Shown: positions 19,858 through 60,347 of the stretch, one piece after another
Layout: each line of letters starts with the position of its first letter
How positions within the stretch are numbered: the first letter of the stretch is position 1
NCBI RefSeq assembly: GCF_002909255.1
Contig: NZ_PIOB01000001.1
Coordinates: forward strand, 1,178,001 to 1,242,000
Origin: Arenibacter hampyeongensis
GTDB taxonomy: Bacteria; Bacteroidota; Bacteroidia; Flavobacteriales; Flavobacteriaceae
Reading direction: 5' to 3'
Length of the DNA stretch: 64,000 bases
Made by a program: the position numbers and the translations under genes
The notes under the pieces: generated by a model
What the model was told of the DNA's origin: nothing
Databases searched by the model: none
The model's input: only the letters and a program-made list of their open reading frames with translations

Positions 19858-19861
19858 TAAA

Positions 19862-35223: not shown

Positions 35224-35691
35224 AAAGGATTATTAATCTAAAAATTCCCCAATGGCGCTGCCTCTGCCCTGCCTGGATCAAAGACAGGGTCACAACTGCT
35301 TTTTTTGGCTATTTATGGGTTAGGTAATAAACAAAATATCGGTTTTTGACCCCTAGGGCCAAAATGATGCCGATAGCTTTAGGTAGGGCGAAACCTATAT
35401 CGAGTGTAGTCTAGGTATGCCCATATGACTTACCTCAGGGATAGTTGGTTTCAAGAAATTTTTTATTGCAACAACGTTCGACTACCCAAACTTGGAAAAG
35501 TTATGGAAGTAAGATTATACAAAATTAAACTTTGTGGATTATTCATTTTTTTAATACAAAATCCTATTTTTGGTTTAAACGCCCGTTTTTATTAGCGTTT
35601 TCACCCTTTTTAGATTTTTAGCTTAATGTACTGTTCATTTTTTCCCCTTTAAATGGATTGAAACCATTGCCAATAAAATTCTTTTTTGAAA
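35224..35691. other. Intergenic region, possible coding scrap
   Basis: About 470 bases. On the minus strand near 35245-35305 there is a short peptide frame ending DPVFDPGRAEAAPLGNF before a stop, interrupted upstream by a stop. It has a plausible protein-like composition, but I cannot assign it. Otherwise I see only AT-rich leader sequence for the next gene. Confidence 0.4.
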
Positions 35692-38889: not shown

Positions 38890-38919
38890 TAGATAGTTAT
38901 TCAACTATATAAATGATAA

Positions 38920-42733: not shown

Positions 42734-43336
42734 CTATCCTTTTTGTTTATTAAAATTAAAAAGTAAAAAAAGTACGGCTTCCATTTTTGTGCCCAATTTT
42801 TCAGTCAGGATTTTAAAGGCCCGTGTAATATGGCCTTCCACAGTTTTTATGGAGATATTAAGATATTCGGAGATTTCGGTATGGGTAAGGCCTTCCTTTT
42901 TATTCATTAAAAATATTTCCTTGCATTTTGAAGGCAATTTCTCAATCTCGATATTCATCAATTTAATCAAATTTTCCAATTCTTCAGGTTCTATGTCAAC
43001 CACCAAATCAATAGCCTCAAAATATTTTTTCTCCAGATAAATTACAGGTTTATTTTTTCTGTATTGATCAATAAACTCATTATAGACCGATTTATATAAA
43101 TAACTCTTAATTGATAAGTCTGGATTAATTTTTTTTCTTTTATCCCACATCTTAACAAATACATTTTGAACAATATCTTCGGACAAGGCATGGTCGTGGC
43201 ATAAGGATTGGGCATAAGCGCACAAACTTTGGTAATAAAAGCCCATTAAGAAATCATAGGCTTTTGAATCGCCTGAGATTAATCTGTGGGCCAAAAATAG
43301 ATTTCTTTTACTGTCCATTAAAAACAGGTTATTCAT
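42734..43336 (-). CDS. ECF RNA polymerase sigma factor (FecI-like) of PUL 2
   Basis: A sigma factor of about 200 residues. Region 2 is FYYQSLCAYAQSLCHDHALSEDIVQNVFVKMWDKR and region 4 is LPSKCKEIFLMNKKEGLTHTEISEYLNIS (each shown in part: DIVQNVFVKMWDK and GLTHTEISEYLNI). An open frame continues upstream to 43438, but those 34 residues are hydrophobic and unlike any sigma factor, so ATG 43336 (MNNLFLMDSKRN) or ATG 43318 is the likely start. It is divergent from the FecR gene, not in the usual tandem order. Together with FecR and the STN-bearing SusC it forms a cell-surface signalling system: substrate at SusC relieves FecR, freeing sigma to transcribe PUL 2. Confidence 0.9.
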   Translation of the reverse strand: MNNLFLMDSKRNLFLAHRLISGDSKAYDFLMGFYYQSLCAYAQSLCHDHALSEDIVQNVFVKMWDKRKKINPDLSIKSYLYKSVYNEFIDQYRKNKPVIYLEKKYFEAIDLVVDIEPEELENLIKLMNIEIEKLPSKCKEIFLMNKKEGLTHTEISEYLNISIKTVEGHITRAFKILTEKLGTKMEAVLFLLFNFNKQKG

Positions 43337-43438
43337 AACATGAGCAAGCAATATTAGTAAATATCTTAAAATAATCACAAAAAAATAGAGGGGTATTAAA
43401 AATTTGAACGTAGTAGGTATACAAGTGTTGAAAATCAA

Positions 43439-44602
43439 ATGACCGAAACAGAAAAAATAATAGTTAAGTTTCTAAATCAAGAAGCAAATCATTCCGAGTT
43501 GGAAAAATTGGAAGATTTTCTTAAGAATGAGAGGGGCATACAAGTCTTCAATAGTTTTGTAAAAACACAATACCTAAGTACACTTTCCATGACAGAATAC
43601 GATGTTAATAAGGCCAAGGAGAACATTAAAACAAGGTTAAAAAAGGGCAAACAGACTAGAAGGGTAAGCCTATATAAGAAAATGGCGGTTGCGGCCTCCA
43701 TTATGCTGATGTTTGGCATGGCCTATTACATGTTATATAACAGCAGTCAAGTAAATACACCAGAAACTGACAAACAACCACATTTAATTATAGCGGGTAC
43801 TGATAAGGCCATCCTTACCCTTGAAAATGGAGATGAGGTAGCCTTGGAAAAAGGAAAAAAATTTCAAACTGGGAAAGCCAGTAGTAATGGGGAGGAATTG
43901 GTATATGAAGATAACGGGCAAAGCAAAAGTGAAGAAAAGGAGCAGTTGTACAATTACCTTACAATCCCTAGGGGAGGTCAGTTTTTTGTTAAATTATCTG
44001 ATGGTACAGAAGTTTGGTTGAATTCTGAAACTAAATTAAAATATCCGGTAGAATTTAAAGAGGGCACTAGCCGTAAGGTAGAATTAGTATATGGCGAGGC
44101 TTACTTTAAGGTTTCTCCAAGTACCGAGCACAAGGGAGCAGCATTTCATGTGCTGACGAAATCCCAGGAAATAGAAGTAATGGGAACGGAGTTTAATATT
44201 AAAGCATATATTAATGATCAGTTAATGGCCACTACCTTGGTGGAAGGAAAAATTAGAATTAAAAAAGGAGAGGTTAGTGAAACCTTGACGCCCAATCAAC
44301 AAGCGAAAATTGGTCCTGAAAGTAATAATATAAAGATTCAGGTAATAGATGTTTCTCAGGAAATTTCATGGGTGAAAGGTTTGTTTTCTTTTAACGAAAA
44401 ACCCTTGGAGGAAATATTGACGGTCTTATCAAGGTGGTATGATACTGAGGTCGTTTTTGCGAATGCCAAACACAAGAAGTTTGTTTTTACGGGAATATTG
44501 GAAAGAACCGAGGCAGTTGAGGATATTCTTAAGCTTATAGAGGCCACAAGTGAGGGGCAGATACAATTTGAAATTGACGATAAAACAATTATTATTAAAT
44601 AA
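43439..44602 (+). CDS. FecR-family anti-sigma factor
   Basis: A 387-residue membrane anti-sigma regulator. Residues 1-75 are the cytosolic sigma-binding part. Residues 80-100 (YKKMAVAASIMLMFGMAYYM) span the inner membrane. Residues 165-275 are the periplasmic FecR domain (TIPRGGQFFVKLSDGTEVW, then VELVYGEAYFKVSP and VMGTEFNIKAY). Residues 310-387 are the DUF4974 domain that contacts the STN domain of SusC. It is divergent from the sigma factor and precedes SusC by 88 bases with a hairpin between them. Confidence 0.94.
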   Translation: MTETEKIIVKFLNQEANHSELEKLEDFLKNERGIQVFNSFVKTQYLSTLSMTEYDVNKAKENIKTRLKKGKQTRRVSLYKKMAVAASIMLMFGMAYYMLYNSSQVNTPETDKQPHLIIAGTDKAILTLENGDEVALEKGKKFQTGKASSNGEELVYEDNGQSKSEEKEQLYNYLTIPRGGQFFVKLSDGTEVWLNSETKLKYPVEFKEGTSRKVELVYGEAYFKVSPSTEHKGAAFHVLTKSQEIEVMGTEFNIKAYINDQLMATTLVEGKIRIKKGEVSETLTPNQQAKIGPESNNIKIQVIDVSQEISWVKGLFSFNEKPLEEILTVLSRWYDTEVVFANAKHKKFVFTGILERTEAVEDILKLIEATSEGQIQFEIDDKTIIIK

Positions 44603-44690: not shown

Positions 44691-47600
44691 ATGAAAATTA
44701 AATTAATCAACCGACCACCTTGCCTATTTGGCAAAGTTCTATTACGCCTTTTTATGAAATCCATTATTTTCTTATTTTGTACGATTTCATTTGCGCTAAA
44801 CCCTATTAATGGGACAGGCCAAAATGCAGAGATTATTGTCGATTCAGATGTAACCCTGAACATTAAACAAGTCTTTCGGCTAATCAATAAGCAGACCGAT
44901 TATAAGTTTATCTATCGACACGACCTCCTGAAAACGGCTCCAAATATCGACCTAAAAAAGGGAGTTATCAAAGCGGGGGATCTTTTGGACAAATGCCTCT
45001 CCCCGATAAGTTTTACTTACAACTTCACAGATGGTTCTACTATTGTAGTGAAAAAAAGATCAACGGATTCCTCGGAAAGTAGTTCAAGTAGGATCTTGGA
45101 TAAGAAATTGCAATTTCAAGTGAGTGGTTCCATAACGGATGATGAAGAAATACCCTTACCGGGAGCTAACATTCTTGAAAAAGGAACTACAAATGGTACT
45201 CAAGCCGATTTTGATGGGAATTTTTCTATTAATGTGACTAATGAGAACGCTATTTTGGTGATTTCCTTTATAGGTTACGCCACCAAGGAAATTTCGGTCA
45301 GCGGGCAGTCTAATATTACTGTAAACTTGAAGGAAAGTACGGCCGGGTTAGATGAAGTGGTTGTTGTAGGGTATGGCACCATAAAAAAGAGCGACCTTAC
45401 TGGTGCTGTCAGCACCGTAAAGGCAGAAGATTTGCCACTCAGCACTAACACATCCGTAGAACAGGCTTTGACATCAAAAGCAGCTGGCTTGACCATCACA
45501 ACTGCCAGTGGTCAACCTGGTGCGGGTGTAAATATCTTGATAAGAGGTGCTGCGAATGTGGGTGCAAGTAACGCGCCTTTATATGTCATCGATGGTTTTC
45601 CAGTGGGTGGAAGTATTGAGCAGCAGAATATTGGAAGATTTGGTGATGCAGGTTTTAGAAGCCCTTTAAACGACATTAACCCTAATGATATTGCCTCAAT
45701 AGAAATATTGAAAGATGCAAGTGCCACCGCAATCTACGGTTCAAGGGCCTCAAACGGTGTAATTCTGATTACCACCAAGAGGGGAAAAGAAGGGGTCGTT
45801 AAAGTTGAGTACTCCTCTAATTATACCGCCCAATCCACTTCTAAATGGTTGGATCTTCTGGATGCCCAGGAATATATGACCGAAAGGAACGAGGTCTTAA
45901 TAGACCATGGCGATCCAGCTGCCTATACCCTTGAGGAAATCGCCAATGCCTCCCAGACTACCGATTGGTTCGATGCCATTTCGCAAAGTGGTTTTATACA
46001 TCAACAGAATATCTCCATCAATGGTGGTACTGAAAATACCAAATATTTGTCTTCTATCAATTACTTTGACCAACAAGGGGTAATCAAAAACAGTGATCTG
46101 AATAGGATTACCGGAAGACTGAATTTGGACCAAAAAATTGGAAAACATATAAATTTTGGACTTACCCTTACCGCCAGTACCATTAAGAACAGAAATGTGC
46201 CTTTAGGGAGCGGAAATAATGAGTTTGCTGCTCCTTTACGCAGTGCCATAGATTTTTCCCCGATTCCTCCTATAAAGGATGAAAATGGTAATTTTTCCAG
46301 ACATCCCATTACTAGTTTCAGTAGTACTTTGGCAAATCCAGTCTCTTTATTGGACATTCAGGATGAGACCGTTACGGAAAGACTCTTTGCAAATGCTTTT
46401 GTAGATGTAAAAATTGTGGAGGGTTTAAATGCCGGGGTAAAAGTAGGTGTTGACAAAAGGAGTGCTACAAGAAATTTTTACTCCCCTACGACCAATATTT
46501 TTGGTGCATCTGAAAATGGGACCGCTAGTAAATTTTTTAATAAGAGAAATGACCAGTTGTTCGGTTTTACCCTTACCTACAATAGGTTGTTTGGTGATGA
46601 CCACAATCTGACGGTCTTGGGTGGTTACGAGTATCAGGAGTTTAATAGGGAAGGATTCAATTCAGGGAACAATGATTTTATTACGGATGGGTTGTTGTTC
46701 AATGATTTAAATGCAGGAATAGGTAATCCTCTTGTGGGATCATTCAAAACTTTTGACGAGTTGGCATCCTATTTTGGAAGGCTGAATTATATTTTCAAGG
46801 ACAAATATTTACTTACGGCATCGATAAGAAGGGATGGTTCACCAAATTTTGGAGCTAACAACAGATGGGGAGTATTCCCTTCCACTTCTTTGGCTTGGCG
46901 AATAATCAACGAAAACTTCATGGCCAACCAAAATACGTTTTCAGACTTAAAGCTTCGTGTGGGTTATGGACAGACCGGTAATAATGCCATAACCGGTGCT
47001 ACGGCATTATATCAGACCCGGGGCAATTATATTTACGGTGCTACAAACCAATCTCCTGAATTTGGGGTACAACAAACACGTTATGAAAACCCAGACCTTA
47101 AATGGCAGACCAATACCGAGATTAATGCTGGATTGGATTTTGCTCTGTTTAAAAATAGAATCTCGGGTAGTGTGGATTATTTTGATAAGAAAGTATCTGA
47201 CTTATTGGGGACTAAACAACTTAAAACCTTTTTACCTATCAGTCAAATAGCTTTCAATGTTGGGGCGACCAAAAGTTCAGGGGTGGAAGTCACTTTGCAG
47301 ACCAAAAACTTGACGGGTAATTTCAAATGGGATACTGGTTTTAATTTAGGAACTTATAAAGACCGTTGGACCGAGCGGGATCCAGCTGCCATATTACAAC
47401 CTTACGAAACAGATAGCGATTTGTTGAACGCTGTTTGGATTTATGATTATCAAGGTATTCAGCAAATAGGCGACCCAATACCGGCTCACCAACCAAATAT
47501 TAAACCAGGGCAACCCATAGTTAAGGATATCAATGGGGTGGACGATGAGGGTAATTTAATACCAGGACCTGACGGGCAAATAACACCGGCCGATAGAATT

Positions 47601-48089
47601 TTTATAGGTACCACTTCTCCAGGATTTGCATATGGTATTTCGAACAACTTAAGTTATAAGGGATTGGATTTGAGTTTCTTTTTACAGGGTATGGGAGATC
47701 GACTTAGGTTCAATGAAACAAGGTCGTTTTATTTGCTACGGGCTAGCAGCCTAAGGGAGGGTAGAAATGTCCTAGCCGAATTTACCGATAGGTGGACACC
47801 TGCAAATACCACTTCAGAAATTCCCGCGGGAACGGTAGACAGTACGCCGGGAAGTGCAGACAGATTGTTCTGGGAAGACGCCGGTTTTTTAAGGTTAAAG
47901 AACGTGACTTTGGGCTACACCTTTCAAGATAAAGTATTCGGGAATGTGGTAAGTAAAGCAAGAATATATGTAGATGCCCAGAATGTATTCTTAATTACCG
48001 ATTATACTGGCATAGACCCAGAGTTCGACAGTATCGGGGCATATCCTAATCAAAGGTCCTTTACGATTGGCCTTAATGTTACTTTTTAA
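44691..48089 (+). CDS. SusC/RagA transporter with STN signalling domain (PUL 2)
   Basis: A 1132-residue outer-membrane transducer-transporter. A long signal region ends near residue 43 (NPINGTGQ). Residues 52-118 form the STN domain (VTLNIKQVFRLINKQTDYKF, then DLKKGVIKAGDLLDKCL). Residues 138-225 are the carboxypeptidase-regulatory-like domain, followed by LDEVVVVGYGTIKKSDLTG, a plug with ILIRGAANVGASNAPLYVID, and the barrel ending in SFTIGLNVTF. The STN domain couples ligand binding to FecR, unlike the PUL 1 SusC. It is paired with SusD 10 bases downstream. Confidence 0.95.
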   Translation: MKIKLINRPPCLFGKVLLRLFMKSIIFLFCTISFALNPINGTGQNAEIIVDSDVTLNIKQVFRLINKQTDYKFIYRHDLLKTAPNIDLKKGVIKAGDLLDKCLSPISFTYNFTDGSTIVVKKRSTDSSESSSSRILDKKLQFQVSGSITDDEEIPLPGANILEKGTTNGTQADFDGNFSINVTNENAILVISFIGYATKEISVSGQSNITVNLKESTAGLDEVVVVGYGTIKKSDLTGAVSTVKAEDLPLSTNTSVEQALTSKAAGLTITTASGQPGAGVNILIRGAANVGASNAPLYVIDGFPVGGSIEQQNIGRFGDAGFRSPLNDINPNDIASIEILKDASATAIYGSRASNGVILITTKRGKEGVVKVEYSSNYTAQSTSKWLDLLDAQEYMTERNEVLIDHGDPAAYTLEEIANASQTTDWFDAISQSGFIHQQNISINGGTENTKYLSSINYFDQQGVIKNSDLNRITGRLNLDQKIGKHINFGLTLTASTIKNRNVPLGSGNNEFAAPLRSAIDFSPIPPIKDENGNFSRHPITSFSSTLANPVSLLDIQDETVTERLFANAFVDVKIVEGLNAGVKVGVDKRSATRNFYSPTTNIFGASENGTASKFFNKRNDQLFGFTLTYNRLFGDDHNLTVLGGYEYQEFNREGFNSGNNDFITDGLLFNDLNAGIGNPLVGSFKTFDELASYFGRLNYIFKDKYLLTASIRRDGSPNFGANNRWGVFPSTSLAWRIINENFMANQNTFSDLKLRVGYGQTGNNAITGATALYQTRGNYIYGATNQSPEFGVQQTRYENPDLKWQTNTEINAGLDFALFKNRISGSVDYFDKKVSDLLGTKQLKTFLPISQIAFNVGATKSSGVEVTLQTKNLTGNFKWDTGFNLGTYKDRWTERDPAAILQPYETDSDLLNAVWIYDYQGIQQIGDPIPAHQPNIKPGQPIVKDINGVDDEGNLIPGPDGQITPADRIFIGTTSPGFAYGISNNLSYKGLDLSFFLQGMGDRLRFNETRSFYLLRASSLREGRNVLAEFTDRWTPANTTSEIPAGTVDSTPGSADRLFWEDAGFLRLKNVTLGYTFQDKVFGNVVSKARIYVDAQNVFLITDYTGIDPEFDSIGAYPNQRSFTIGLNVTF

Positions 48090-48099
48090 AAATTATACT

Positions 48100-49620
48100 A
48101 TGAAATATATATATATCAAAAAAAAGATCCGCCTAATTGTTGGAGCCATTGGCTTAGGCATTTTGTTCCTTTTCTCTGCCTGTGAAGGTGATTTGGAGCC
48201 TAAAAATTTTAATGTGATAGATCCTTCTACATTTTTTAAAACGGAAAGTGATGCTCAAGCATTAACAAATGCAGTATATGACCGTTTTAATACCGGATGG
48301 ACAGGAACCTTTCTTAATTATAAAGGGTTTTTTATTAGCGATATGGTTGGGGGCCAATTTTTTATAGTATGGACTCCACCAGAATGGGTGCGATTAAACG
48401 ACTTTACATGGTCTGCATTAACACAAAATGAATATGCGGAGACATATTTTGCCGTAGTACCCTCTGTAGCTTTTGCAACGAATGTTATAGAAGATATTAA
48501 AGGAATTGATATTCCAGACGATGTTAAGGCAGGCTATATTGCTCAGGTAAGAACAGCAAGAGCACTTATGACTCTTTTTGGTTACGATTTGTATGGACCA
48601 TTACCTCTGGTTGTTGACCCTGCAATTACCAAAAACCCATTTACCGAATTTGACCCTGTAAGATGGACAAAAGCAGAAATGGATACATTTATTGAAACGG
48701 AATTAATTGAAGCTCAAGCAGACCTTGTTAGCAAAAATGATCTGCCATCTGCCAAATATGGTGCTTTAACAAAAGGGGCCGCAATGACGGGTTTGATGAA
48801 GTTATATTTAATGCAAAAAAATTGGGCAAAAGTTAAAGCAATTACTGCTGACATAATGCTTGAAGGTTATTCATTAGAACAAACTACAGGCTCAGTATTT
48901 AGTGTTTTAAACGAAGCAAATGATGAAGTAATTTGGGCACAGCCAAGAACTTCAAACGAAAATGATGGTCCTGTAAACTTTACGGTTACTTCTTCTGTGC
49001 CTGGAGATTATGGAACCGATGCGTTTCCAGTAGGTACAGTACAAGGTTGGGGAGGTCTTCGTGTGCCATGGGAAATGTACGATGCATACGATGATCAAGA
49101 TGAACGTAAAGCATTATTTCCAATTTCCTGGTTGGACGCAAACGGAGTTGAAACCGATATGCGTGCTAATGGAACTTTGGTTTCTGGAGCGCTTTATCTG
49201 AAATATGATATAGATCCCAACAGACAAGGTACGGCTCACGGTAACGACTATGTATTTTATAGATATGCAGATGTATTACTAGCAAGAGCTGAAGCGTTAA
49301 ACGAACTAACGGCAGTAGATAGTGAAGCAATACAATTAGTGCAAGAAATTCGCGATCGTTCCAATGCAGGTCCAATTCCTGCATCTGCGACAGCAAGTCA
49401 ATCAGCTTTTAGAGATTTTATACTTTTAGAAAGAAGAAAAGAACTTTTAGGTGAAGGTTGGTCAAGACAAGATTTGATACGCCATGGCAAGTTTTTAGAT
49501 TATGCTCGTAACAGAGTATTAGAAACAGTTCCAGATGCTGCTGAAAAACATTTATTGTTTCCAATTCCACAAGATGCTATTAATGCTAATCCGAAGATAG
49601 AACAGAATCCTGGATATTAA
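48100..49620 (+). CDS. SusD/RagB surface glycan-binding lipoprotein (PUL 2)
   Basis: A 506-residue lipoprotein. ATG 48100 gives MKYIYIKKKIRLIVGAIGLG and the lipobox LFLFSACEG. An earlier frame start at 48067 lies inside SusC and is rejected. SusD features are FNVIDPSTFFKTESDAQALTN near the N-terminus, TPR-like helices, and FILLERRKELLGEGWSRQDLIRHG near the C-terminus, ending in IPQDAINANPKIEQNPGY. By eye, codon use shifts here towards AGA, GCA and TCA relative to the SusC before it, so it may have a different history. It is followed by a strong terminator. Confidence 0.94.
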   Translation: MKYIYIKKKIRLIVGAIGLGILFLFSACEGDLEPKNFNVIDPSTFFKTESDAQALTNAVYDRFNTGWTGTFLNYKGFFISDMVGGQFFIVWTPPEWVRLNDFTWSALTQNEYAETYFAVVPSVAFATNVIEDIKGIDIPDDVKAGYIAQVRTARALMTLFGYDLYGPLPLVVDPAITKNPFTEFDPVRWTKAEMDTFIETELIEAQADLVSKNDLPSAKYGALTKGAAMTGLMKLYLMQKNWAKVKAITADIMLEGYSLEQTTGSVFSVLNEANDEVIWAQPRTSNENDGPVNFTVTSSVPGDYGTDAFPVGTVQGWGGLRVPWEMYDAYDDQDERKALFPISWLDANGVETDMRANGTLVSGALYLKYDIDPNRQGTAHGNDYVFYRYADVLLARAEALNELTAVDSEAIQLVQEIRDRSNAGPIPASATASQSAFRDFILLERRKELLGEGWSRQDLIRHGKFLDYARNRVLETVPDAAEKHLLFPIPQDAINANPKIEQNPGY

Positions 49621-49688: not shown

Positions 49689-49721
49689 CTGGCAAAGAAT
49701 CATTTGTTAATCAACGAAATA

Positions 49722-52700
49722 ATGAAAAAAAGCGATTATTTATACTTACTAGCACTCGGATTGTTTTTACAATTGTTGTTTACAAGTTGTAATAGTAATG
49801 AGAAGGAATTGCCATTATTTTCTTTGCTTTCTCCCACAGACACAGGAATAGCTTTTCAGAACAAGTTGGTGGAAAAATATGATGACAATATTCTCCGTAG
49901 TGAATATTTTTATAATGGAGGGGGTGTATCCGCAGGAGATATCAATAATGATGGTTTGGTAGATCTTTATTTTGTTTCGAACCAAGGAAAGAATAAACTC
50001 TACCTGAATCAAGGAAATTTTAAATTTAAAGATATTACTGAGACTGCTATGACTGGGGGTCATAATGGTTGTGCAGCTGCAAGTTCAATGGTAGATATCA
50101 ATGGTGATGGTTATTTGGATATTTATGTTAGTTATACGGGAACTTCTAAATTAACGCAAACTGCCAATCAGTTGTTCATTAATAATAAAGATCTCACTTT
50201 CACTGAAACCGCAATGGTTTTGGGAATAAACGACAGAGGACAATCAAATCAATCTGTTTTTTTTGACTATGACTTAGATGGTGACTTAGACATGCTAGTT
50301 ACCAATCATTTAATTAATTATCCGGAATTAAAGGATACCACGGCAATTATTTCTAAACAAAGTGCAAAAGCGGGAGACAGGCTTTATAGAAACGATGAAT
50401 TTTATTTTAAGGATGTAACTAATGAGGCTGGAATTTATAGTCATGCATTGGGTTTTGGACTAGGTGTTGGAATTGGTGACGTTAATCAAGATGGTTGGCC
50501 AGACATTTATATAGGAAATGATTTTATAGAGAAAGATTACCTATATATTAATAATAAGAATGGTTCATTTACCGAAAAGTCACTAGACGCCTTTGGGCAT
50601 ATCACTAATTTTTCCATGGGCAATGACATAGCCGACATCAACAATGATGGGCTACTGGACATTGTTTCTTTGGATATGGCGAATACTAACAACTTCGATA
50701 TTAAAACAGATATGGCAGGAATGAACCCTGTAGGCTTCAATAATGCTGTAAAGGCAGGATTTCACCATCAATATATGTATAATACCTTACAATTAAACAT
50801 GGGCAATGGCCTGTTTAGCGAAGTTGCCAAAATTGCGGGAATAGATGCAACCGACTGGAGTTGGGCTCCATTATTGGCAGATTTTGACAACGATGGTTAC
50901 AAAGATTTATTTGTAAGTAACGGGTTCCGTAGGAATTTTAGAAACAAGGATTTTCAAAAATATCAAGAGAAAAAGTATAACTCACAACAATGGACAAAGG
51001 AAACAATCCCGTATCTTATGAAGGACCTATTGGAGCATATACCAATAAAAACATTAACTAATAAAATATTTAAAAATTTAGATGGCTATTACTTCGAGGA
51101 CAAATCTACCAATTGGGGTATGCTGGAAACTTCATTTTCGAATGGTGCAATCTATGCCGATTTGGACAATGATGGAGATTTGGATATAGTTGTAAACAAT
51201 ATAGACCAAGAGGCATTTGTTTACAGGAACAATACCAATTTTAAATTAAGTAATAATTTTATAAAGATAAATCTAAAAGGATCTAAGCATAATGATTTTG
51301 GTTTAGGGGCTAGGGTTACAGTTTATTTACCCAATAATACAAAACAATTTGCTGAACACTATATGGTAAGGGGATATAGATCCTCGGTTCCTTCTGGGTT
51401 ACACTTTGGATTGGGACAGCAACATCAAATAGATAGTGTTTTTGTACAATGGCCAAATGGTATGGAGCAATTACTTACCCAAGTAAAATCCAATCAAGAA
51501 ATACTGGTAAAATACGAAGATGCCAAAAAGAGAAAAAATAGAGCTGCAAGTGCCTCAAAACTGTTCGAAACCGTTTCTGCTGAAGATCATGGCATAACAT
51601 TCTCCCATCGCGAAAATTATTTTGACGATTATAAAGTACAGTTACTACTTCCACATAAATATTCTCAATTTGGACCAGGTATTTCAGTAGCCGATGTAAA
51701 TTCGGATGGGTTGGACGATTTTTACGTAGGCGGGGCTAAGGAACAATCCGGCGTGCTTTATATACAGCAAAAAGAGGGCATATTCGTTGAGAAAAGTGGG
51801 CCTTGGGTTGCCCATGCCAATCAAGAGAATGTAGCTTCACTTTTCTTTGATGCTAATGATGACGGACATCAAGATTTATATATCGTGAATGGCGGTAATG
51901 AGTATGAAAATGGTAATGAAGCCTATCGAGATCGTTTATATTTAAATGATGGTAAGGGGCAATTTTCAGATAACTCAAAAAATCTTCCCGATTTAAGATT
52001 TAGTGGTTCTAAAGTAAGAGCCTCCGATTTTGATAATGATGGTGATTTGGATCTTTTTGTCGGAGGTAGGGTCGTTGCTCAGGACTATCCGTTGCCTGCT
52101 TCAGGATATTTGTTAGAGAATAAAAATGGCAAGTTTAGCCTTATTACGGAAAGTATAGCACCTGAATTGGAAAATTTAGGCTTAATTACCGATGCGCAAT
52201 GGACGGATATTGATGGAGACGGAGATGAAGATTTAATAGTCGTCGGGGAATGGATGCCCGTAACGATTTTTATGAACAACAATGGGCATTTTAAAAAATC
52301 TGATGGAGAAAAGAATGGACTTACAGATACCGAAGGGTGGTGGTATAGTATAGATACCGCAGATTTTGATGGTGATGGCGACATGGACATCGTTGCTGGA
52401 AATTTGGGAAACAACTACAAATATAAGGCCAGTATAGACCAGCCTTTTGAGGTATTTGCTTCGGATTTTGATCAAAACAAGAAATTAGATATCGTACTAG
52501 GTTTTCACGAGGAAGGAAAACTCTTTCCGTTAAGAGGTCGCCAATGTTCGTCTGATCAAATGCCTTATATAAATGAGAAATTCGGCTCTTATGAAGAATT
52601 TGCCAAAGCTACTATAGAAGACATTGTAGGAAAGAATAAAATGGGTGAAGCTCTTAATCTCAAGGCGAAGACATTTTCCAGTAGCTATTTTCAAAACAAT

Positions 52701-53045
52701 GGTGATGGTACGTTTGCAACTAATCCCTTACCCTTTTTGGCTCAAATTTCAAGTGTAAACGACCTTTTCATAAAAGATTTTAATAATAATGGGCATTTGG
52801 ACATAGTCTTAGTGGGCAATTTATATCAATCGGAAATAGAAACACCCAGGAATGATGCCAGTTATGGATTAGTGCTATTAGGTGATGGCAAAGGAAGTTT
52901 TAAACAACAGTTTCCTTATGAAAGTGGGTTCAACGTGAAAGGAGATGTCAAAGAAATAGCGGCTATTCAAATCAATGGGAGGCCACATATAATAGTGACC
53001 AAAAATGATGACCAGCTTCAATTGGTACAATTAAATAAGCAATGA
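49722..53045 (+). CDS. Giant FG-GAP/VCBS and ASPIC/UnbV (CRTAC1-like) lipoprotein
   Basis: A 1107-residue lipoprotein (LLFTSCNSNEKE). ATG 49722 is chosen over an upstream TTG for the clean signal. Residues 45-475 carry FG-GAP propeller repeats with calcium-type D-x-N-x-D-G loops (AGDINNDGLVDLYFVSN, then DYDLDGDLDMLVTN and ADLDNDGDLDIVVNN). Residues 525-605 are an ASPIC/UnbV domain (GARVTVYLPNNTKQF, then VFVQWPNGMEQLL). Residues 620-1060 are a second FG-GAP array. Such proteins are frequent in Bacteroidota PULs, with a presumed surface-binding or scaffolding role. It overlaps the next gene by four bases (ATGA), implying translational coupling. Confidence 0.92.
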   Translation: MKKSDYLYLLALGLFLQLLFTSCNSNEKELPLFSLLSPTDTGIAFQNKLVEKYDDNILRSEYFYNGGGVSAGDINNDGLVDLYFVSNQGKNKLYLNQGNFKFKDITETAMTGGHNGCAAASSMVDINGDGYLDIYVSYTGTSKLTQTANQLFINNKDLTFTETAMVLGINDRGQSNQSVFFDYDLDGDLDMLVTNHLINYPELKDTTAIISKQSAKAGDRLYRNDEFYFKDVTNEAGIYSHALGFGLGVGIGDVNQDGWPDIYIGNDFIEKDYLYINNKNGSFTEKSLDAFGHITNFSMGNDIADINNDGLLDIVSLDMANTNNFDIKTDMAGMNPVGFNNAVKAGFHHQYMYNTLQLNMGNGLFSEVAKIAGIDATDWSWAPLLADFDNDGYKDLFVSNGFRRNFRNKDFQKYQEKKYNSQQWTKETIPYLMKDLLEHIPIKTLTNKIFKNLDGYYFEDKSTNWGMLETSFSNGAIYADLDNDGDLDIVVNNIDQEAFVYRNNTNFKLSNNFIKINLKGSKHNDFGLGARVTVYLPNNTKQFAEHYMVRGYRSSVPSGLHFGLGQQHQIDSVFVQWPNGMEQLLTQVKSNQEILVKYEDAKKRKNRAASASKLFETVSAEDHGITFSHRENYFDDYKVQLLLPHKYSQFGPGISVADVNSDGLDDFYVGGAKEQSGVLYIQQKEGIFVEKSGPWVAHANQENVASLFFDANDDGHQDLYIVNGGNEYENGNEAYRDRLYLNDGKGQFSDNSKNLPDLRFSGSKVRASDFDNDGDLDLFVGGRVVAQDYPLPASGYLLENKNGKFSLITESIAPELENLGLITDAQWTDIDGDGDEDLIVVGEWMPVTIFMNNNGHFKKSDGEKNGLTDTEGWWYSIDTADFDGDGDMDIVAGNLGNNYKYKASIDQPFEVFASDFDQNKKLDIVLGFHEEGKLFPLRGRQCSSDQMPYINEKFGSYEEFAKATIEDIVGKNKMGEALNLKAKTFSSSYFQNNGDGTFATNPLPFLAQISSVNDLFIKDFNNNGHLDIVLVGNLYQSEIETPRNDASYGLVLLGDGKGSFKQQFPYESGFNVKGDVKEIAAIQINGRPHIIVTKNDDQLQLVQLNKQ

Positions 53046-56000
53046 TGATGAAAAAATGCCTCCTGATTCCTTGCTTTGTAATCCTAATCTTTAAAGGGAC
53101 TGAGAAAATATATGCACAATCTTTTAAGGAAGTTAGTGGAGATGCGGGCATTACACATCATTTTTTTAATGTAAATCAAGAGGGAGGCTCGGTCGCTTTT
53201 TTCGATTTTAATAACGATGGCTGGGATGACCTTTATGTTACTGGCGGTGGGCTACCAGATAAGCTTTTTGAGAATTTGGGCAATGGAGATTTTAAGGATG
53301 TTTCCAAAGCATTAGGAATTGATCAAGTGGCAAACATAGATACGATGGGGGCATATGCTGCCGATTTGGACAATGATGGATATTCCGATATTTTTATTTC
53401 AACCAAAATGGACGATACCTGTTATGTGCTATGGAACAATCACGGCAATTCGTTTGAAATTGCGAATACCACTTCTGGACTTTCCGATACGTTTTATGGG
53501 ACTTCAATAGCGGTAGGGGATTATGATCTTGATGGAGATTTAGATGTATATGTAGGTAATTATAGAGCTATTACACAAGATGTGTTTTACAAAAACAATG
53601 GCCACCGTACATTTTCTAATATTAGCTCCCAAATAGTGGGAGACGATGGTAAAGGAGCAACTTGGGCAGTGGCATTTTCAGATTGGGACAGAGACAATGA
53701 CCCGGACCTTTTTGTTGTTAACGATTTTGGAAATATAATTCTGCCAAACAAACTTTTTCAAAATGATTATCCTAATAATTCTTTTACCGAGATATCAGCT
53801 ACTGTTGGATATAATGAAGCAATGGACGGCATGTCGATAGGAATCGGAGATTTTGATGAGGATGGTGATATGGACTATTATAGTTCCGATACCGGCCCTA
53901 ATAATTTTTTTGTAAATGAAAATGATTCTTTTGTTGATAGAGCCATGGAATTAGGCATCACAGTAGATGATGGTACAAGTTGGGGATCTGTTTTTACCGA
54001 TTACAACAATGACACATATCTCGATTTATTGGTTATGAACGGTCCTATAGGGCTAAGTGATGGGCATGAGCATAAAAATAAACTTTTTAGGGGTAATGGG
54101 GCTGCTTTCCAAGATGTTTCTGAAGCAGAGGGGGTTGCAAGCGTATATAATAGTAGGGGCTTGACATTGTCGGATTTTGATAATGATGGTCGTGTAGATT
54201 ATGCAGCTGCGGTTTTGGATATAGAAAGGGAAACTCCAAGGCATATGCTGTTGTATAAAAATGTTAATAATAGCAATGCCAACTGGATACAAGTAGAATT
54301 ACAAGGTACCTCAAACAATAAAGATGGTTATGGTAGTTTTATAGAGATTGAAGTAAGTGGCAGAACATTTTCAAAGGAACAGTACGGAGGTGGTTCGTTT
54401 ATGTCCACACAGAGTAAGACCCAGCATTTTGGATTGGGGGACTATACTCGTGTCGATAAATTAAATGTTATTTGGCCAGGAGGTAATACTACAACGTTTA
54501 ACAATTTATCTGTTAAAAAAAGGTTTCGGGTTGTTGAAAACGGAGAGCTTTTCGTTTTGGAACCTAATAAAGTATCCTTAAAACAAGGAGAAACAGCCTT
54601 TTTAGAAGGGGAATCACAAAATGTTCCGGGAATATATAGAGATACATTGGCAACTAATCCATACCGAACCATACGCATTACGAAATTAGACTTTAATGGT
54701 GAAACTAGTGGCGGAGAAAGCACTGGAGGTGAAGCTAACGGACTGTCGGTTGCTAGAAGATGGAATGAATTGCTATTGGAATCTATACGTAACGATTACG
54801 CACGTCCAACAGTGCATGCTAGAAATCTTTTTCATACTTCAATTGCTATGTACGATGCGTTCACAGTGTTCAATAATGAAGCAAAACCTTATTTTTTAGG
54901 AAACAAAATCGGCAATTATCAAGTGGACTTCTCTGGAATAACAATCCCTGGCAATGAGGAGGCCGCGCAAAAAGAGGCAATGAGCTATGCATGTTTTCGT
55001 TTGCTTAACCATCGTTTTAAGGATGCTCCCGGTTCCATTCGCCTACTTCAAAGTTATAAGGCATTGATGCAGGAATTGGGGTACGATTTCAACTTTACTT
55101 CAACAAATTATTCGGAAGGAAGTCCTGCTGCACTTGGCAATTATTTGGGGGAACAGCTTATTGCCTTCGGATTGCAGGATGGTTCTAATGAAATCAACCA
55201 ATACGCCAATAAATATTATCAACCAAAGAACGATCCCTTAGTGGTTAATGAACCCGGTAACCCTACAATTACCTACCCCAATAACTGGCAGCCTTTGGCC
55301 TTGACTAATTTTATCGATCAAAGTGGAAATGTAATTGGCGCCAGCACACCCGAGTTTTTGAGCCCAGAGTGGGGCAGGGTTGTTCCTTATGCCCTTAAAA
55401 GAGATGAATTGACGATTAAAAACAAAGATGGACAAGAGTATTGGCTATATCACAATCCGGAAGGGCCGGCAGAAATAAAGTCAGATGGTACATTAGGAAT
55501 GGCCGACCCCTATAAATGGAATTTTTCCTTAGTGTCCGTTTGGTCTTCACATTTAAATCCATCTGATGGAACAATGATTGATATTTCACCTGCATCTATA
55601 GGTAATATAGACCTCGCCAGCTTTCCAAAAACATTCGAAGAATATAAGGAATTTTATAATTTAACCGAAGGCGGAGATGTGGGTAAGGGCCATAAAATTA
55701 ACCCGGTTACCAATGCTCCCTATGAGCCACAAATGGTTCTTAAAGGAGATTATACACGCGTCTTAGCCGAATTTTGGGCAGACGGCCCCAACTCTGAAAC
55801 TCCTCCGGGACATTGGTTTACGATTCTAAATTATGTGAGCGATCATCCAATGACGGAGAAAAAATTCAATGGTAAAGGAGAGGTGTTATCAAACCTTGAA
55901 TGGGATGTAAAAAGCTATATGGTCTTGGCTGGGGCCATGCACGATGCTGCTATCACTGCTTGGGGTTTAAAAGGGTATTATGATAATATAAGGCCTATTT

Positions 56001-56929
56001 CGGCCATTAGATATATGGCATCAAAGGGACAGAGCTCGGACAGGAGTCTTCCTAGTTACCACACTGAAGGTATACCATTGTTATCTGGATTTATTCAGGT
56101 AGTACAGAAGGACGACGTATTGGCAGGTATCAACAACGAGAATGTTGGTAAAATTAAATTGTATGCATGGAAAGGGAGTAATTTAATTGAAAACCCAGAT
56201 ACAGATATTGCCGGGGTAGGTTGGATTCTTGCGGAAAATTGGGTGCCTTACCAAAGGCCTTCTTTTGTAACACCACCATTTGGAGGATATATCTCGGGAC
56301 ATTCCACATTTTCAAGGGCTGGTGCAGAAGTATTGACCGAGCTCACTGGAAGCAAGTTCTTTCCGGGTGGAATGGGAACTTTTAGTATGGAAAAGAATAA
56401 ATTTCTTGTTTTTGAAGATGGCCCAAGTGCTGATTTAACTTTGCAATGGGCAACATATCAAGATGCATCAGATCAATGCAGTCTATCCCGTATCTGGGGA
56501 GGCATACACCCGCCCATGGATGATATCGTGGGTCGAATTGCAGGTGAAGAAATTGGTAAAGAAGCATTTTCCCAATCGAAATATTTTTTTTATGAAGATA
56601 AAGATGGTGATGGATATTTAAGTTTTGAAGATGTTGACGATACAAATAATAATATACACTCAAAGATCGATCAGTCCCAAAAATTGGTTTATAGATTATT
56701 CCCTGTTCCTGTAAAAGATGAATTGACGCTGAGCATTGATGATTTTAAAGGAAGATTAAATTTCAGTGCATTTTCAATGTATGGTACCAAAGTGCTGGAT
56801 AAGGAAATTGATGTGGCTCAAGGTGAAGTAATAATTCCATTGCAACAACTGGCATCCGGAGTATTTATTTTAGTTTTTACTAATGATAATAATGAAAAGC
56901 TAATCGCGCAAAAAATAATAAAACTGTGA
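53042..56929 (+). CDS. FG-GAP/UnbV - vanadium haloperoxidase fusion with T9SS tail
   Basis: A 1295-residue secreted protein with a signal peptide ending near residue 24 (KIYAQS). Residues 25-420 are FG-GAP repeats (FFDFNNDGWDDLYVTGGG). Residues 425-505 are ASPIC/UnbV (LNVIWPGGNTTTFNNL). Residues 570-1165 match vanadium-dependent haloperoxidases: WGLKGYYDNIRP near residue 975 has the Trp-x-x-Lys and Lys-x6-Arg-Pro pattern, PPFGGYISGHSTF near 1080 has Phe and Ser-Gly-His in the fungal chloroperoxidase spacing, and SRIWGGIHPPMDD near 1148 has Arg-x5-His. All vanadate ligands are therefore present. An EF-hand-like DKDGDGYLSFEDVDD follows at about 1185, then a T9SS sorting domain (PVPVKDELTLSI to LIAQKIIKL). 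The domain order is unusual. Activity and halide choice are untested. Confidence 0.9.
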   Translation: MMMKKCLLIPCFVILIFKGTEKIYAQSFKEVSGDAGITHHFFNVNQEGGSVAFFDFNNDGWDDLYVTGGGLPDKLFENLGNGDFKDVSKALGIDQVANIDTMGAYAADLDNDGYSDIFISTKMDDTCYVLWNNHGNSFEIANTTSGLSDTFYGTSIAVGDYDLDGDLDVYVGNYRAITQDVFYKNNGHRTFSNISSQIVGDDGKGATWAVAFSDWDRDNDPDLFVVNDFGNIILPNKLFQNDYPNNSFTEISATVGYNEAMDGMSIGIGDFDEDGDMDYYSSDTGPNNFFVNENDSFVDRAMELGITVDDGTSWGSVFTDYNNDTYLDLLVMNGPIGLSDGHEHKNKLFRGNGAAFQDVSEAEGVASVYNSRGLTLSDFDNDGRVDYAAAVLDIERETPRHMLLYKNVNNSNANWIQVELQGTSNNKDGYGSFIEIEVSGRTFSKEQYGGGSFMSTQSKTQHFGLGDYTRVDKLNVIWPGGNTTTFNNLSVKKRFRVVENGELFVLEPNKVSLKQGETAFLEGESQNVPGIYRDTLATNPYRTIRITKLDFNGETSGGESTGGEANGLSVARRWNELLLESIRNDYARPTVHARNLFHTSIAMYDAFTVFNNEAKPYFLGNKIGNYQVDFSGITIPGNEEAAQKEAMSYACFRLLNHRFKDAPGSIRLLQSYKALMQELGYDFNFTSTNYSEGSPAALGNYLGEQLIAFGLQDGSNEINQYANKYYQPKNDPLVVNEPGNPTITYPNNWQPLALTNFIDQSGNVIGASTPEFLSPEWGRVVPYALKRDELTIKNKDGQEYWLYHNPEGPAEIKSDGTLGMADPYKWNFSLVSVWSSHLNPSDGTMIDISPASIGNIDLASFPKTFEEYKEFYNLTEGGDVGKGHKINPVTNAPYEPQMVLKGDYTRVLAEFWADGPNSETPPGHWFTILNYVSDHPMTEKKFNGKGEVLSNLEWDVKSYMVLAGAMHDAAITAWGLKGYYDNIRPISAIRYMASKGQSSDRSLPSYHTEGIPLLSGFIQVVQKDDVLAGINNENVGKIKLYAWKGSNLIENPDTDIAGVGWILAENWVPYQRPSFVTPPFGGYISGHSTFSRAGAEVLTELTGSKFFPGGMGTFSMEKNKFLVFEDGPSADLTLQWATYQDASDQCSLSRIWGGIHPPMDDIVGRIAGEEIGKEAFSQSKYFFYEDKDGDGYLSFEDVDDTNNNIHSKIDQSQKLVYRLFPVPVKDELTLSIDDFKGRLNFSAFSMYGTKVLDKEIDVAQGEVIIPLQQLASGVFILVFTNDNNEKLIAQKIIKL

Positions 56930-57086
56930 AGCGCCTTCAATTTATAGATTAGAAGTGATAAAGTACCATGGTTTAATCTTATAGCCATGCTGCAAATTCA
57001 AAAATTGGAAAATATAAGTATGGAAATTCGTGTTCGAAAGTAAAATTAAGGTTCAAACAGGTCTAATAAATCAAAACGAAATAGAT

Positions 57087-59309
57087 ATGGCTCTTTCAAA
57101 AAAAGTACTCTTACAATTAATAATAATATGTATTGCATCGGGGTTTTTAAATTGCAGTAATAATGTAAAAGAAGTTAACAATAGCAAGTTTCCAGCTATT
57201 TCTGGGCTTTTGGAACGCAGATTACCAGAGCACAAAAATAGCTTCGTTTTCAAGGAAATTTTGGAAGAAGGTGATACTGATGTTTTCGAAATCTGGACAA
57301 AAGATGGCAAGGTAGAAATCTCTGGAAATAATGAGATCAGCATGGCAAGTGGCCTTAATTGGTACCTAAGATATTATTGCCATGTTCGTCCAACATGGGA
57401 TAACTTTGATATAAGTCTGCCCAAAGAACTGCCAAAGGTAAAGGAGAAAATAAGACAAGAAAGTTCTGTCGATAACTCCTATTATCTGAATTATTGTACA
57501 TTTAATTATTCCATGTCTTTTTGGAATTGGGAACGTTGGGAAAAAGAAATCGACTTTATGGCATTGAATGGGGTAGACCTGCCCTTGGCCATAACAGGGG
57601 CGGAGGCGACTTGGCAGAATACGCTAAATAGATTAGGCTATACAAAAGAAGAAATAGACGTTTTTTTGCCTGGGCCGGCATTTAATTCATGGTGGCTTAT
57701 GGGAAACCTTGAAGGATGGGGAGGGCCTTTGCCGCAAAACTGGATAGACGGTCATGTCGATTTACAGAAAAAAATATTGGAACGAATGAAAGCTTTTGGA
57801 ATGAAGCCGATTTTGCCAGCTTTTTATGGCATGGTTCCAAATTCGCTTATTGAGAAATATCCTGATGCGGACATTCGAGATCAAGGGATATGGGCTGGAG
57901 GATTCACGAGACCGGCATTCTTGGCTCCCACAGACCCTCTATTCGATAAAATAGCTTCTATATTTTATGAGGAACAGGATAAACTTTTTGGTTCTTCAGA
58001 GTATTTTTCGGGAGATCCTTTTCATGAGGGGGGATCTACCCTAGGGATTGATGTTCCAAAGGCTGGTAAGAATATTTTGAAAAATATGCATAAATCCTCT
58101 CCAAAGGCTAAATGGGTTCTTATGGCCTGGGGGCACAACCCGATGAATGAAATGTTCAATTTAATAAATGATAATGATGTGCTTATACTTGATTTGGAGG
58201 CCAATAATTATCCAAAATTTGAAATGCATAACAACTGGGGTGATAAGCCTTTTATTTGGGGCATAATCGGTAATTTTGGAGGGAATACGGGTCTTTTTGG
58301 AAGAATGGATGCGACGGTAAATGAATTTAATCGTATTTTAAATCATCCTGGACTAACAAATACAAATGGTGTCGGTGTAATACCTGAAGCTATTGAAAAT
58401 AACCCAGTGATGTACGAGCTTCAATTTGAATTAAAATGGAGAAAGAATAAAGTTGACCTGAGCAAATGGTTAAATGATTATGCCTTTAGTCGGTACGGTA
58501 AAGAAAACCAAGATATAGAAGAAGCGTGGCAAGTTTTAAGAAGCACGGTATACTCAAATAGAATGGCTCGTAACAACGAACAGCAGGGAACTACCGAATC
58601 CGTGTTTTGTGCTCGTCCTTCCTTAAAAATTGAAAAGGTATCCTCTTGGGGCACTTCAAAATTATATTATAATCCGTCAGATCTTCTACCTGCCTGGAAA
58701 GCTTTTGTTGCACAGTCCAATGAGTTTAAAGATTCGCCTTCATTTGAATATGATCTTGTAGATGTGACCAGGCAAGTTCTAGCCAACTATGGGCAATGGG
58801 TACATACTAAGATGACTGAAGCATACGCTGAAAAAAAAATCTCAAGTTTTAGAGCCTTCAGCGATTTGTTCCTCGAGCTTATTAAGGATCAAAACGAGTT
58901 ATTAAATACGAAAACGGAATTCATGTTAGGTCCGTGGATAGCGAGTGCTAGGGCATGGGGACAAACTAAGGCAGAAAAAGATTTGTATGAATTTAATGCC
59001 CGTACATTATTGACTACATGGTCATTTCAAGATTCCAATCTCCATGATTATTCCCATAGAGAGTGGGGTGGGCTCCTATCCGATTTTTATTTCCCAAGAT
59101 GGGAAATGTTTATCTCAAAACTTGCCTCTGATTTAAAAGGAGAGCCTTCGGAGGAAATTGATTATTATTCCTTTGAAGAGAATTGGAATAAAGAACACAA
59201 GTTTTATGCTACCGAGGAACAACAAGATTGTATTCTCAAAGCAGATGAAATATATAATAAATACTACGATAAAATCCAAGCATCTTATCAGCAAAATACT
59301 GATAAATAA
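57087..59309 (+). CDS. GH89 alpha-N-acetylglucosaminidase (NAGLU) lipoprotein
   Basis: A 740-residue lipoprotein. ATG 57087 gives MALSKKVLLQLIIICIASGF and a lipobox at FLNCSNN. An upstream TTG frame adds a polar leader and is rejected. The N-terminal domain (VEISGNNEISMASGLNWYL) is followed by the GH89 TIM barrel: YYLNYCTFNYSMSFWNWERW, then MALNGVDLPLAITGAEATW, DPFHEGGSTLG near residue 309 and VIPEAIENNPVMYEL near residue 430. The Glu in each of the last two motifs is the catalytic pair of the family. GH89 releases terminal alpha-GlcNAc, as in heparan-type or mucin-type glycans. It is the only recognisable glycoside hydrolase of PUL 2. Confidence 0.95.
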   Translation: MALSKKVLLQLIIICIASGFLNCSNNVKEVNNSKFPAISGLLERRLPEHKNSFVFKEILEEGDTDVFEIWTKDGKVEISGNNEISMASGLNWYLRYYCHVRPTWDNFDISLPKELPKVKEKIRQESSVDNSYYLNYCTFNYSMSFWNWERWEKEIDFMALNGVDLPLAITGAEATWQNTLNRLGYTKEEIDVFLPGPAFNSWWLMGNLEGWGGPLPQNWIDGHVDLQKKILERMKAFGMKPILPAFYGMVPNSLIEKYPDADIRDQGIWAGGFTRPAFLAPTDPLFDKIASIFYEEQDKLFGSSEYFSGDPFHEGGSTLGIDVPKAGKNILKNMHKSSPKAKWVLMAWGHNPMNEMFNLINDNDVLILDLEANNYPKFEMHNNWGDKPFIWGIIGNFGGNTGLFGRMDATVNEFNRILNHPGLTNTNGVGVIPEAIENNPVMYELQFELKWRKNKVDLSKWLNDYAFSRYGKENQDIEEAWQVLRSTVYSNRMARNNEQQGTTESVFCARPSLKIEKVSSWGTSKLYYNPSDLLPAWKAFVAQSNEFKDSPSFEYDLVDVTRQVLANYGQWVHTKMTEAYAEKKISSFRAFSDLFLELIKDQNELLNTKTEFMLGPWIASARAWGQTKAEKDLYEFNARTLLTTWSFQDSNLHDYSHREWGGLLSDFYFPRWEMFISKLASDLKGEPSEEIDYYSFEENWNKEHKFYATEEQQDCILKADEIYNKYYDKIQASYQQNTDK

Positions 59310-59618: not shown

Positions 59619-60347
59619 ATGGAAAAAATACGATCTAAATTTAGTAAACAAGGTTATATCAAAATAGATGCTTTGCTTTCATTGGAAGAGGTAAAAGCTT
59701 TACGAACTATTTATGATGAATTGCTCCAAGACAAAATTGCAACTGCCAATTTACGTAGCGATCTTGCTGGTGCAGTAAATACCGCTGGCGAAAAGGTTGA
59801 ACGCATCACACAAATTATGAGGCCAAGTAGTGTCAATCCCGCATTGCTCAACAACAAGGCTTACGAAAAAGCCTTGCAACTAGTAAAGGATATACTAGGA
59901 GCCGATATGGCGCTTGACTTTGATATGATGATCAATAAGGCTCCCCATACCAATACTCCAACCCCTTGGCATCAAGATGCTGCCTACTGGATTGATTTGC
60001 CCGATAAAAGATCGGCAAGTTGTTGGATAGCCTTGGATGAGGTATTCGAAGAAAATGGCTGTATGTGGTTTGTCCCTAAAGAGGAAGGGATTACCATATT
60101 TCCACATAAAAATTTACCCAATGGAGGAGCTCTTTATTGTGAAACCGACACCACCCAAGCAAAATGCATTCCCCTACATCCTGGTGGATGTACTTTTCAT
60201 GATGGGTATACGCTTCACTTTAGCAAGGGCAATACTACTGATATGCAACGAAGGGCCCTAATCTTAAATTTCAGGCCACAAAAAATGATTGAGCTGGAAA
60301 GGGAGCAAGGGGTAGATCATACAGGGGCAAGAAAAAAAAGGACTTAG
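59619..60347 (+). CDS. PhyH-family Fe(II)/2-oxoglutarate dioxygenase
   Basis: A 242-residue cytosolic enzyme of the phytanoyl-CoA dioxygenase type. PWHQDAAYWIDLPDKRSAS near residue 115 supplies the H-x-D iron ligands, and GYTLHFSKGNTTDMQRRAL near residue 196 supplies the distal His and the Arg that binds 2-oxoglutarate. The length is normal and no signal peptide is present. Many PhyH proteins in PULs and natural-product loci hydroxylate small molecules. Here the substrate may be a sugar derivative from GH89 action or an unrelated metabolite. It is the last complete gene of the island cargo and is followed by a truncated isomerase-like gene. Confidence 0.92.
   Translation: MEKIRSKFSKQGYIKIDALLSLEEVKALRTIYDELLQDKIATANLRSDLAGAVNTAGEKVERITQIMRPSSVNPALLNNKAYEKALQLVKDILGADMALDFDMMINKAPHTNTPTPWHQDAAYWIDLPDKRSASCWIALDEVFEENGCMWFVPKEEGITIFPHKNLPNGGALYCETDTTQAKCIPLHPGGCTFHDGYTLHFSKGNTTDMQRRALILNFRPQKMIELEREQGVDHTGARKKRT

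Follow-up and report, generated by a model that had tools for sequence, protein, structure and literature searches.

A long-form vanadium haloperoxidase fused to an FG-GAP/UnbV propeller in Arenibacter hampyeongensis, and the recurrence of this pairing in Bacteroidota

In this study, we analyzed a gene from Arenibacter hampyeongensis (Flavobacteriaceae, Bacteroidota) that joins an FG-GAP/UnbV β-propeller to a vanadium haloperoxidase (VHPO) in one reading frame, at positions 53042-56929 (+ strand) of a 64,000-nucleotide stretch of DNA (the window; assembly GCF_002909255.1, contig NZ_PIOB01000001.1, positions 1,178,001 to 1,242,000). The fusion is real, intact, and recurrent. It is a propeller-fused, long-form version of a known kind of enzyme, and the repeated pairing with FG-GAP/UnbV proteins is the best clue to its function: because the two parts recur together, joined or as neighboring genes, in many related bacteria, we suggest that they work together. 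With moderate confidence, we propose that the protein is a surface VHPO positioned by its CRTAC1-type propeller and that it exemplifies a pairing of FG-GAP/UnbV with VHPO that recurs in Bacteroidota.

The open reading frame (ORF) encodes 1,295 amino acids without an internal stop and is present whole, and once, in the organism's own genome. From the N to the C terminus, it comprises a signal peptide, a CRTAC1-like FG-GAP/UnbV propeller, a flexible linker, a complete VHPO, and a tail of the kind used by the type IX secretion system (T9SS). Pfam recognizes FG-GAP_3 in five stretches (E = 1e-32) and UnbV_ASPIC (residues 429-494) in the propeller half, and DUF6851 (residues 601-751) and VCPO_2nd (residues 1127-1156) in the VHPO half, with PAP2 at residues 1071-1171 scoring 21.5 bits, under its cut-off of 27.2; no NCBIfam family is assigned to the protein. 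Its sequence-level relatives in the PDB are CRTAC1 (9etn) for the first half and, as VHPOs, 9l8x, 9ptr, NapH3, and ZgVIPO1, to which a search with the long-VHPO family profile adds NapH1 and structures of T9SS tails. Modeled with AlphaFold from 96 sequences, residues 24-1195 form two confident domains, with a mean predicted local distance difference test score (pLDDT) of 88.1 and a predicted template modeling score (pTM) of 0.66, and the VHPO domain modeled alone (33 sequences) reaches a pTM of 0.92. In Foldseek, the whole model matches CRTAC1 (E = 1e-24) and, with its other half, NapH1, NapH3, XhnO11, ZgVIPO1, and the Curvularia chloroperoxidase; the same VHPO matches, including 3w36, 4usz, and 1vnc, recur for the VHPO domain alone. 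These results bear out the initial annotation, which had described one frame joining a CRTAC1-like FG-GAP and ASPIC/UnbV half to a VHPO and had proposed the comparison of a predicted structure with haloperoxidases as a check. By eye, the linker resembles the segment that follows UnbV in stand-alone FG-GAP proteins (loci L062/L256).

The same architecture was recovered well beyond the window. Among 199 same-family genomes, drawn from a larger number, 127 hold a VHPO match of some kind; in 29 genomes, 34 long VHPO matches belong to frames longer than 1,240 amino acids, and every one of these 34 frames includes the FG-GAP half. Frame size by itself is no proof of fusion, as a frame of 1,297 amino acids at L057 is devoid of FG-GAP. 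Fused examples come from Tamlana, Lutibacter, Wenyingzhuangia, an uncultured Maribacter, Seonamhaeicola, and Flavobacterium. At the level of the phylum, long VHPOs are found at E ≤ 1e-20 in 22 of 395 genomes, and among the 25 matches listed, those of the window and of genome G157 are fused. A gene-model or assembly artifact that joined two separate genes has a negligible probability, given the single open frame and the same domain order in the 34 family ORFs and in isolates such as Lutibacter, Tamlana, and Wenyingzhuangia; nothing seen points to a frameshift or an assembly join between the halves.

The VHPO core was annotated as complete, and this holds: the vanadate-site residues Lys, Arg, Ser-Gly-His, Arg, and His occur in order, in a predicted VHPO helical bundle. 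Across 81 distinct long-VHPO domains, conservation is 97% or higher for K977, R984, S1085-G-H1087, R1150, and H1156 and also for W974 and F1080. The spacings are K977-x6-R984-P and R1150-x5-H1156, with W974 three residues before K977 and F1080 seven before H1087. The fold matches and the profile alignment with the ZgVIPO1-type family speak, indirectly, for a common pocket of the vanadate-site residues. All 53 fused rows combine Trp at position -3 of the Lys, Phe at position -7 of the His, and R-x5-H; the combination is complete in 55 of the 62 unfused long rows and 43 of the 48 short ones, and some of the remaining rows may be cut or broken frames. The Phe had been read as a sign of a chloroperoxidase, a reading that finds no support here: both this Phe and the Trp recur in ZgVIPO1, which is titled an iodoperoxidase in the PDB, and in most short rows, so that F1080 and W974 cannot separate chloro- from iodoperoxidases and should not be used to predict halide preference. 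The Trp is also shared with NapH1, and a passage of PMC11871015 states that the residue three positions before the Lys cannot by itself explain halide specificity. Our guess is that the halide would be iodide or bromide. An alternative is that the domain is a phosphatase or another non-halogenating enzyme built on the same fold. The title of NapH3, whose fold matches closely, speaks of a rearrangement, so that halogenation cannot be concluded from the fold by itself, and the weak fold matches (E of about 0.4 and worse) include acid phosphatases; yet the VHPO matches are far stronger than these, and the vanadate-site motifs are retained in the fused and unfused long rows counted above, which makes this alternative improbable.

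The protein is probably secreted. Its C terminus, annotated as a T9SS tail, scores under the Pfam cut-off for Por_Secre_tail (Table 1); solved T9SS tails (8glk, 8glj) are among the matches of the family profile, and T9SS export is a putative route to the surface or the outside. In the mechanism that we propose, Sec export followed by T9SS sorting would yield a two-module enzyme at the surface or outside the cell, whose C-terminal long-form VHPO, judging by its homologs, would bind vanadate and use H2O2 to oxidize a halide to hypohalous acid. The N-terminal propeller, on its flexible linker, would hold this catalyst at a target, be it a glycan, the matrix, or the SusCD/FG-GAP complex encoded by the operon. 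Targeting by the propeller is inferred, and the glycan binding put forward in the initial annotation is a guess.

Phylogenies of both halves suggest that the fusion does not go back to one event. In a VHPO tree of 81 rows (33 fused), the fused label needs five changes, gains or losses, at least four of which are forced by starred branches. The FG-GAP tree, in which 47 of 144 rows are fused, scatters the fused halves over at least four positions: a main group holding L170, the window together with L062 and L173 (99), L171 together with L189 (99), and a group of L088 and five fused rows (100). The window's FG-GAP half thus groups with two stand-alone 665-residue FG-GAP proteins (SH-aLRT 99) and not with other fused halves. 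A single origin was rejected by approximately unbiased (AU) tests, made on quick trees of chosen subsets, for the VHPO (48 rows, 18 fused; p-AU 0.0009, or 0.020 without L014) and for the FG-GAP half (56 rows, 20 fused; p-AU 1e-6, or 1.5e-52 when the window is left out), although these p values are generous because the groups were named after the first trees had been seen. The VHPO of the window is sister to that of genome G050 (99), but the FG-GAP half of G050 lies, on a long branch, in the main fused group; propellers have therefore been swapped or joined anew.

The pairing is also seen without fusion. Long VHPO and FG-GAP genes are adjacent on the same strand at L069, L205, and L291-L294; in Pleomorphovibrio (L069) a split pair with a 4-nt overlap lies downstream of SusC-SusD, and at L205 the pair follows sigma-FecR-SusC-SusD. 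Looser arrangements include a GH20 gene between the two (L204), an upstream FG-GAP gene at a distance of about 0.7 kb (L303), and FG-GAP genes further off on the opposite strand (L301, L308). In the FG-GAP tree, nine stand-alone rows, all encoded next to a long or short VHPO or a few genes away from one, make up a single clade (100) within a 16-row group (92) that includes the window's FG-GAP half.

The short VHPO family extends this picture. The organism's own genome encodes a 448-residue VHPO (L234), whose gene follows SusC-SusD and two FG-GAP genes. It aligns to ZgVIPO1 with 770 bits over 445 residues, is closely related to it, and is probably its ortholog. Matches to it at E ≤ 1e-25 occur in 89 of the 199 family genomes, a few of which have only distant ones (such as G085 and G179). 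We hand-picked 20 short-VHPO neighborhoods (L236-L255), spaced along the ranking and spanning 80% to 42% identity to L234. In 18 of them, an immediate same-strand neighbor of the VHPO is an FG-GAP/UnbV gene, the exceptions being L240, where FG-GAP genes lie further off, and L254, where there is none; SusC and SusD are both within the stretch read in 10 of the 20. Six loci less similar to L234 (L257-L259 and L266-L268) all have an adjacent FG-GAP gene, which for L257-L259 was visible from the coordinates before these loci were read. Among the loci examined, other genes around short VHPOs encode, at L236, an SSF symporter and, at L237, an FGGY kinase and a sugar-isomerase-like protein.

At the window's locus, the fusion lies in a SusC/SusD operon (Table 1), and the stop of the 1,113-residue FG-GAP/UnbV gene before it overlaps its start (ATGA). 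With a SusC/SusD pair and a glycan-active enzyme (NAGLU), the operon resembles a polysaccharide utilization locus (PUL). None of 17 congeners has a long VHPO, all 17 having short or distant VHPO matches instead, and SusD matches at E ≤ 1e-30 occur in 7 of the 17, at 27-34% identity, with one further match of 43% over 177 residues (a third of the protein); because of this absence and this distance, the operon looks accessory within the genus. The description of the locus as an island PUL is supported for the window but does not extend to the fusion in general, nor is the fusion aptly called a new kind of PUL component, as it is widespread in the family and, in most cases seen, not part of a SusCD operon: SusC or SusD was found within 10 kb on the same strand in 14 of 56 other fused loci. 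The latter count, which includes repeats (L041/L043 are near-identical, and L090 and L218 are a repeat pair), is a lower bound, as misses are likely with home-made hidden Markov models built from the window's own genes and stretches of at most 20 kb cut some operons. When the neighbors of 39 fused genes (L041, L054, and L090 omitted) were clustered, SusC and SusD were present within 6.5 kb on either strand at 13 and 11 loci, respectively, and the next cluster favoring fused genes at 6.

Table 1 Features of the fusion gene and its operon in window coordinates
Feature	Position	Strand	Basis
ECF sigma factor (divergent)	42734..43438	-	Pfam
FecR anti-sigma factor	43439..44602	+	Pfam
SusC/RagA TonB-linked outer membrane protein	44691..48089	+	TIGR04056
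SusD family protein	48067..49620	+	Pfam
FG-GAP/UnbV protein, 1113 aa, lipoprotein-like start (by eye)	49704..53045	+	Pfam
Fusion: N-terminal signal peptide, residues 1-25, ends ..YAQ/S, without lipobox	53042..53116	+	Translation by eye, cleavage site inferred
Fusion: CRTAC1-like FG-GAP beta-propeller + ASPIC/UnbV, residues 26-494 (UnbV 429-494)	53117..54523	+	Pfam; PDB 9etn by sequence and fold
Fusion: low-confidence linker, residues 509-565	54566..54736	+	pLDDT <50
Fusion: long-form vanadium haloperoxidase domain, residues 567-1187	54740..56602	+	Pfam, profile search, model pTM 0.92, fold matches
Fusion: W974-x2-K977-x6-R984-P985 motif	55961..55996	+	Kept in at least 97% of 81 domains
Fusion: F1080 to S1085-G-H1087 motif	56279..56302	+	Residue conservation among homologous domains
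Fusion: R1150-x5-H1156 motif (His = vanadate ligand by homology)	56489..56509	+	Conservation, profile search, profile alignment
Fusion: T9SS C-terminal sorting domain, residues 1219-1292	56696..56917	+	Por_Secre_tail E 2e-5, 25.2 bits (cut-off 27); family profile matches 8glk, 8glj
GH89-type alpha-N-acetylglucosaminidase (NAGLU)	57030..59309	+	Pfam
PhyH-type dioxygenase	59619..60347	+	Pfam

The GH89-type gene that adjoins the fusion, and the GH20 genes that adjoin the split pairs at L204 and L205, bring up another possible role, an oxidative attack on amino-sugar glycans, in which hypohalous acid formed at a propeller-bound polymer would N-halogenate N-acetylhexosamine and aid chain breakage ahead of exo-hexosaminidases. 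HOCl N-halogenates glycosaminoglycans, and propeller lectins that bind N-acetylglucosamine (2bwm, 4up4, 4tqj) are among the Foldseek matches. These lectin matches are weak, though (template modeling [TM] score of about 0.2 by query and 0.47-0.49 by target), other propellers score alike, and the main-clade locus L279, by Pfam, sits among housekeeping genes; we consider this role very doubtful.

Several features of the window and of related loci deserve mention in their own right. The L279 gene has as neighbors genes of PorV, cytidine deaminase, and pyruvate dehydrogenase E1/E2 type, and main-clade fused genes seem to lie in such a core-like region also at others of L273-L284 and at L050, L058, and L060, by similar gene lengths. 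Fused genes form tandem pairs in Tamlana nanhaiensis (L039, 5947-14023) and Wenyingzhuangia marina (L053, 9971-18025), and in genome G150 (L285, 8400-11032) a long VHPO is split into frames of 491 and 387 amino acids. At L152, an unfused long VHPO of about 730 amino acids adjoins what by eye appear to be kynureninase, kynurenine 3-monooxygenase, RidA, aldehyde dehydrogenase, and SDR genes; L153, L157, L158, L160, L162, L163, L166, and L052 share this setting by gene order, and two of the neighbor clusters recur in 10 solo loci each. The organism's own genome (contigs C1, C2, C12, C22, and C25) has about 12 frames of 1,110-1,150 amino acids with FG-GAP similarity, two of which precede a ZgVIPO1-type gene and one the fusion. 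Upstream in the window, apiosidase-like, GLAA-B-like, and GH95 glycan genes lie at 44-1423 and 19826-24215, and a PSCyt1/PSCyt2/PSD1 protein (1,067 amino acids), which carries a domain named for planctomycetes, is followed by a DUF1501 protein at 35686-40428.

A number of observations weigh against a surface VHPO held by its propeller. The T9SS tail scores under the Pfam cut-off, and the NapH3 title allows a different reaction on this fold. An adjacent FG-GAP gene was found for only 2 of 31 unfused long VHPOs (L049, L052, L057, L069, L152-L169, L204-L206, and L286-L290) and for 4 of 21 in the phylum regions, which cover 21 of the 25 matches listed; there is none for those at L152-L168 (18 by our count). 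As most unfused long VHPOs are without such a neighbor, the enzyme evidently works without FG-GAP. One short-VHPO lineage (L260-L265) has an FG-GAP neighbor at none of six loci, and 42 of the 56 fused genes have no SusC/SusD seen nearby, so that the role of the operon may not be general. A rival reading is a surface peroxide scavenger, an enzyme that would mainly destroy H2O2, for instance from an algal oxidative burst, by halide-dependent turnover and have no specific organic target. VHPOs consume H2O2, and many genomes hold a long VHPO without a fused propeller. In a passage of PMC9296495, moreover, the Zobellia iodoperoxidase vIPO3 is upregulated with A. nodosum versus alginate. However, scavenging leaves unexplained both the repeated attachment of the propeller and the FG-GAP, often SusCD, neighborhood of the short form, and we find it unlikely as the main function.

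We therefore keep to a VHPO positioned by its propeller and, more tentatively, offer a broader possibility: CRTAC1-type propellers and VHPOs may be halves of one Bacteroidota surface system that includes the ZgVIPO1 family, is partly linked to SusC/SusD, and was fused on several separate occasions. The propeller might then capture a substrate, or pass on oxidized halogen, or a ligand that carries halogen, for uptake by SusCD, and the system would serve the capture of halogen or of halogen-marked organic matter rather than free bleaching. To our knowledge, bacterial vanadium iodoperoxidases, whose structure is solved, have no settled biological role; a recurrent FG-GAP/UnbV partner, sometimes with SusC/SusD, gives this question a testable context, namely, the site of the oxidant, its target, and any uptake.

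In the literature searched, to which the original ZgVIPO1 paper did not belong, we did not find the FG-GAP/UnbV-VHPO pairing. A passage of PMC5064120 reports that Arenibacter C-21 takes up iodine in a process that needs glucose, oxygen, and calcium and for which a haloperoxidase is proposed, and that this strain has at least five PAP2 genes like ZgVIPO. Together with the Zobellia data, this makes cell-surface iodide or bromide chemistry a plausible setting by analogy, neither passage treating the fusion.

Among known systems, the vanadium iodoperoxidase ZgVIPO1 of Zobellia galactanivorans (PDB 4cit/4usz) shares K-x6-RP, SGH, R-x5-H, the Trp, and the Phe with the fusion. The long-VHPO profile aligns with the ZgVIPO1-type short family over most of its length (hhalign, 99.8%), motifs on motifs, and members of this family often have FG-GAP/UnbV genes as neighbors. 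ZgVIPO1 differs in its length of about 450 amino acids and its lack of a fused propeller; the long form has large inserts, and identities in the profile alignment are 26%. The best fold matches of the VHPO half are NapH1 and NapH3 (3w35/3w36, 8cxl; TM score 0.71-0.77 by target), which we take to be enzymes of Streptomyces secondary metabolism and which are only 16-18% identical and have no propeller. The Curvularia inaequalis chloroperoxidase (1vnc), which presumably has the residue spacings named in the initial annotation, matches in fold (E = 5e-11 for the whole model and 7e-12 for the domain alone) at 12-13% identity, the shared Phe not being diagnostic. Mouse CRTAC1 (9etn) is the best fold match of the whole model (TM score 0.75 by target), but its chain of 551 residues covers only the first half of the fusion and has no VHPO domain. 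The closest relatives found for the window's FG-GAP half, at 39-41%, are the stand-alone 665-residue FG-GAP/UnbV proteins of Zobellia amurskyensis (L062) and of L173/L256, which follow SusC-SusD in the same setting as the fusion but have no VHPO domain and end, by eye, in what look like T9SS tails of their own.

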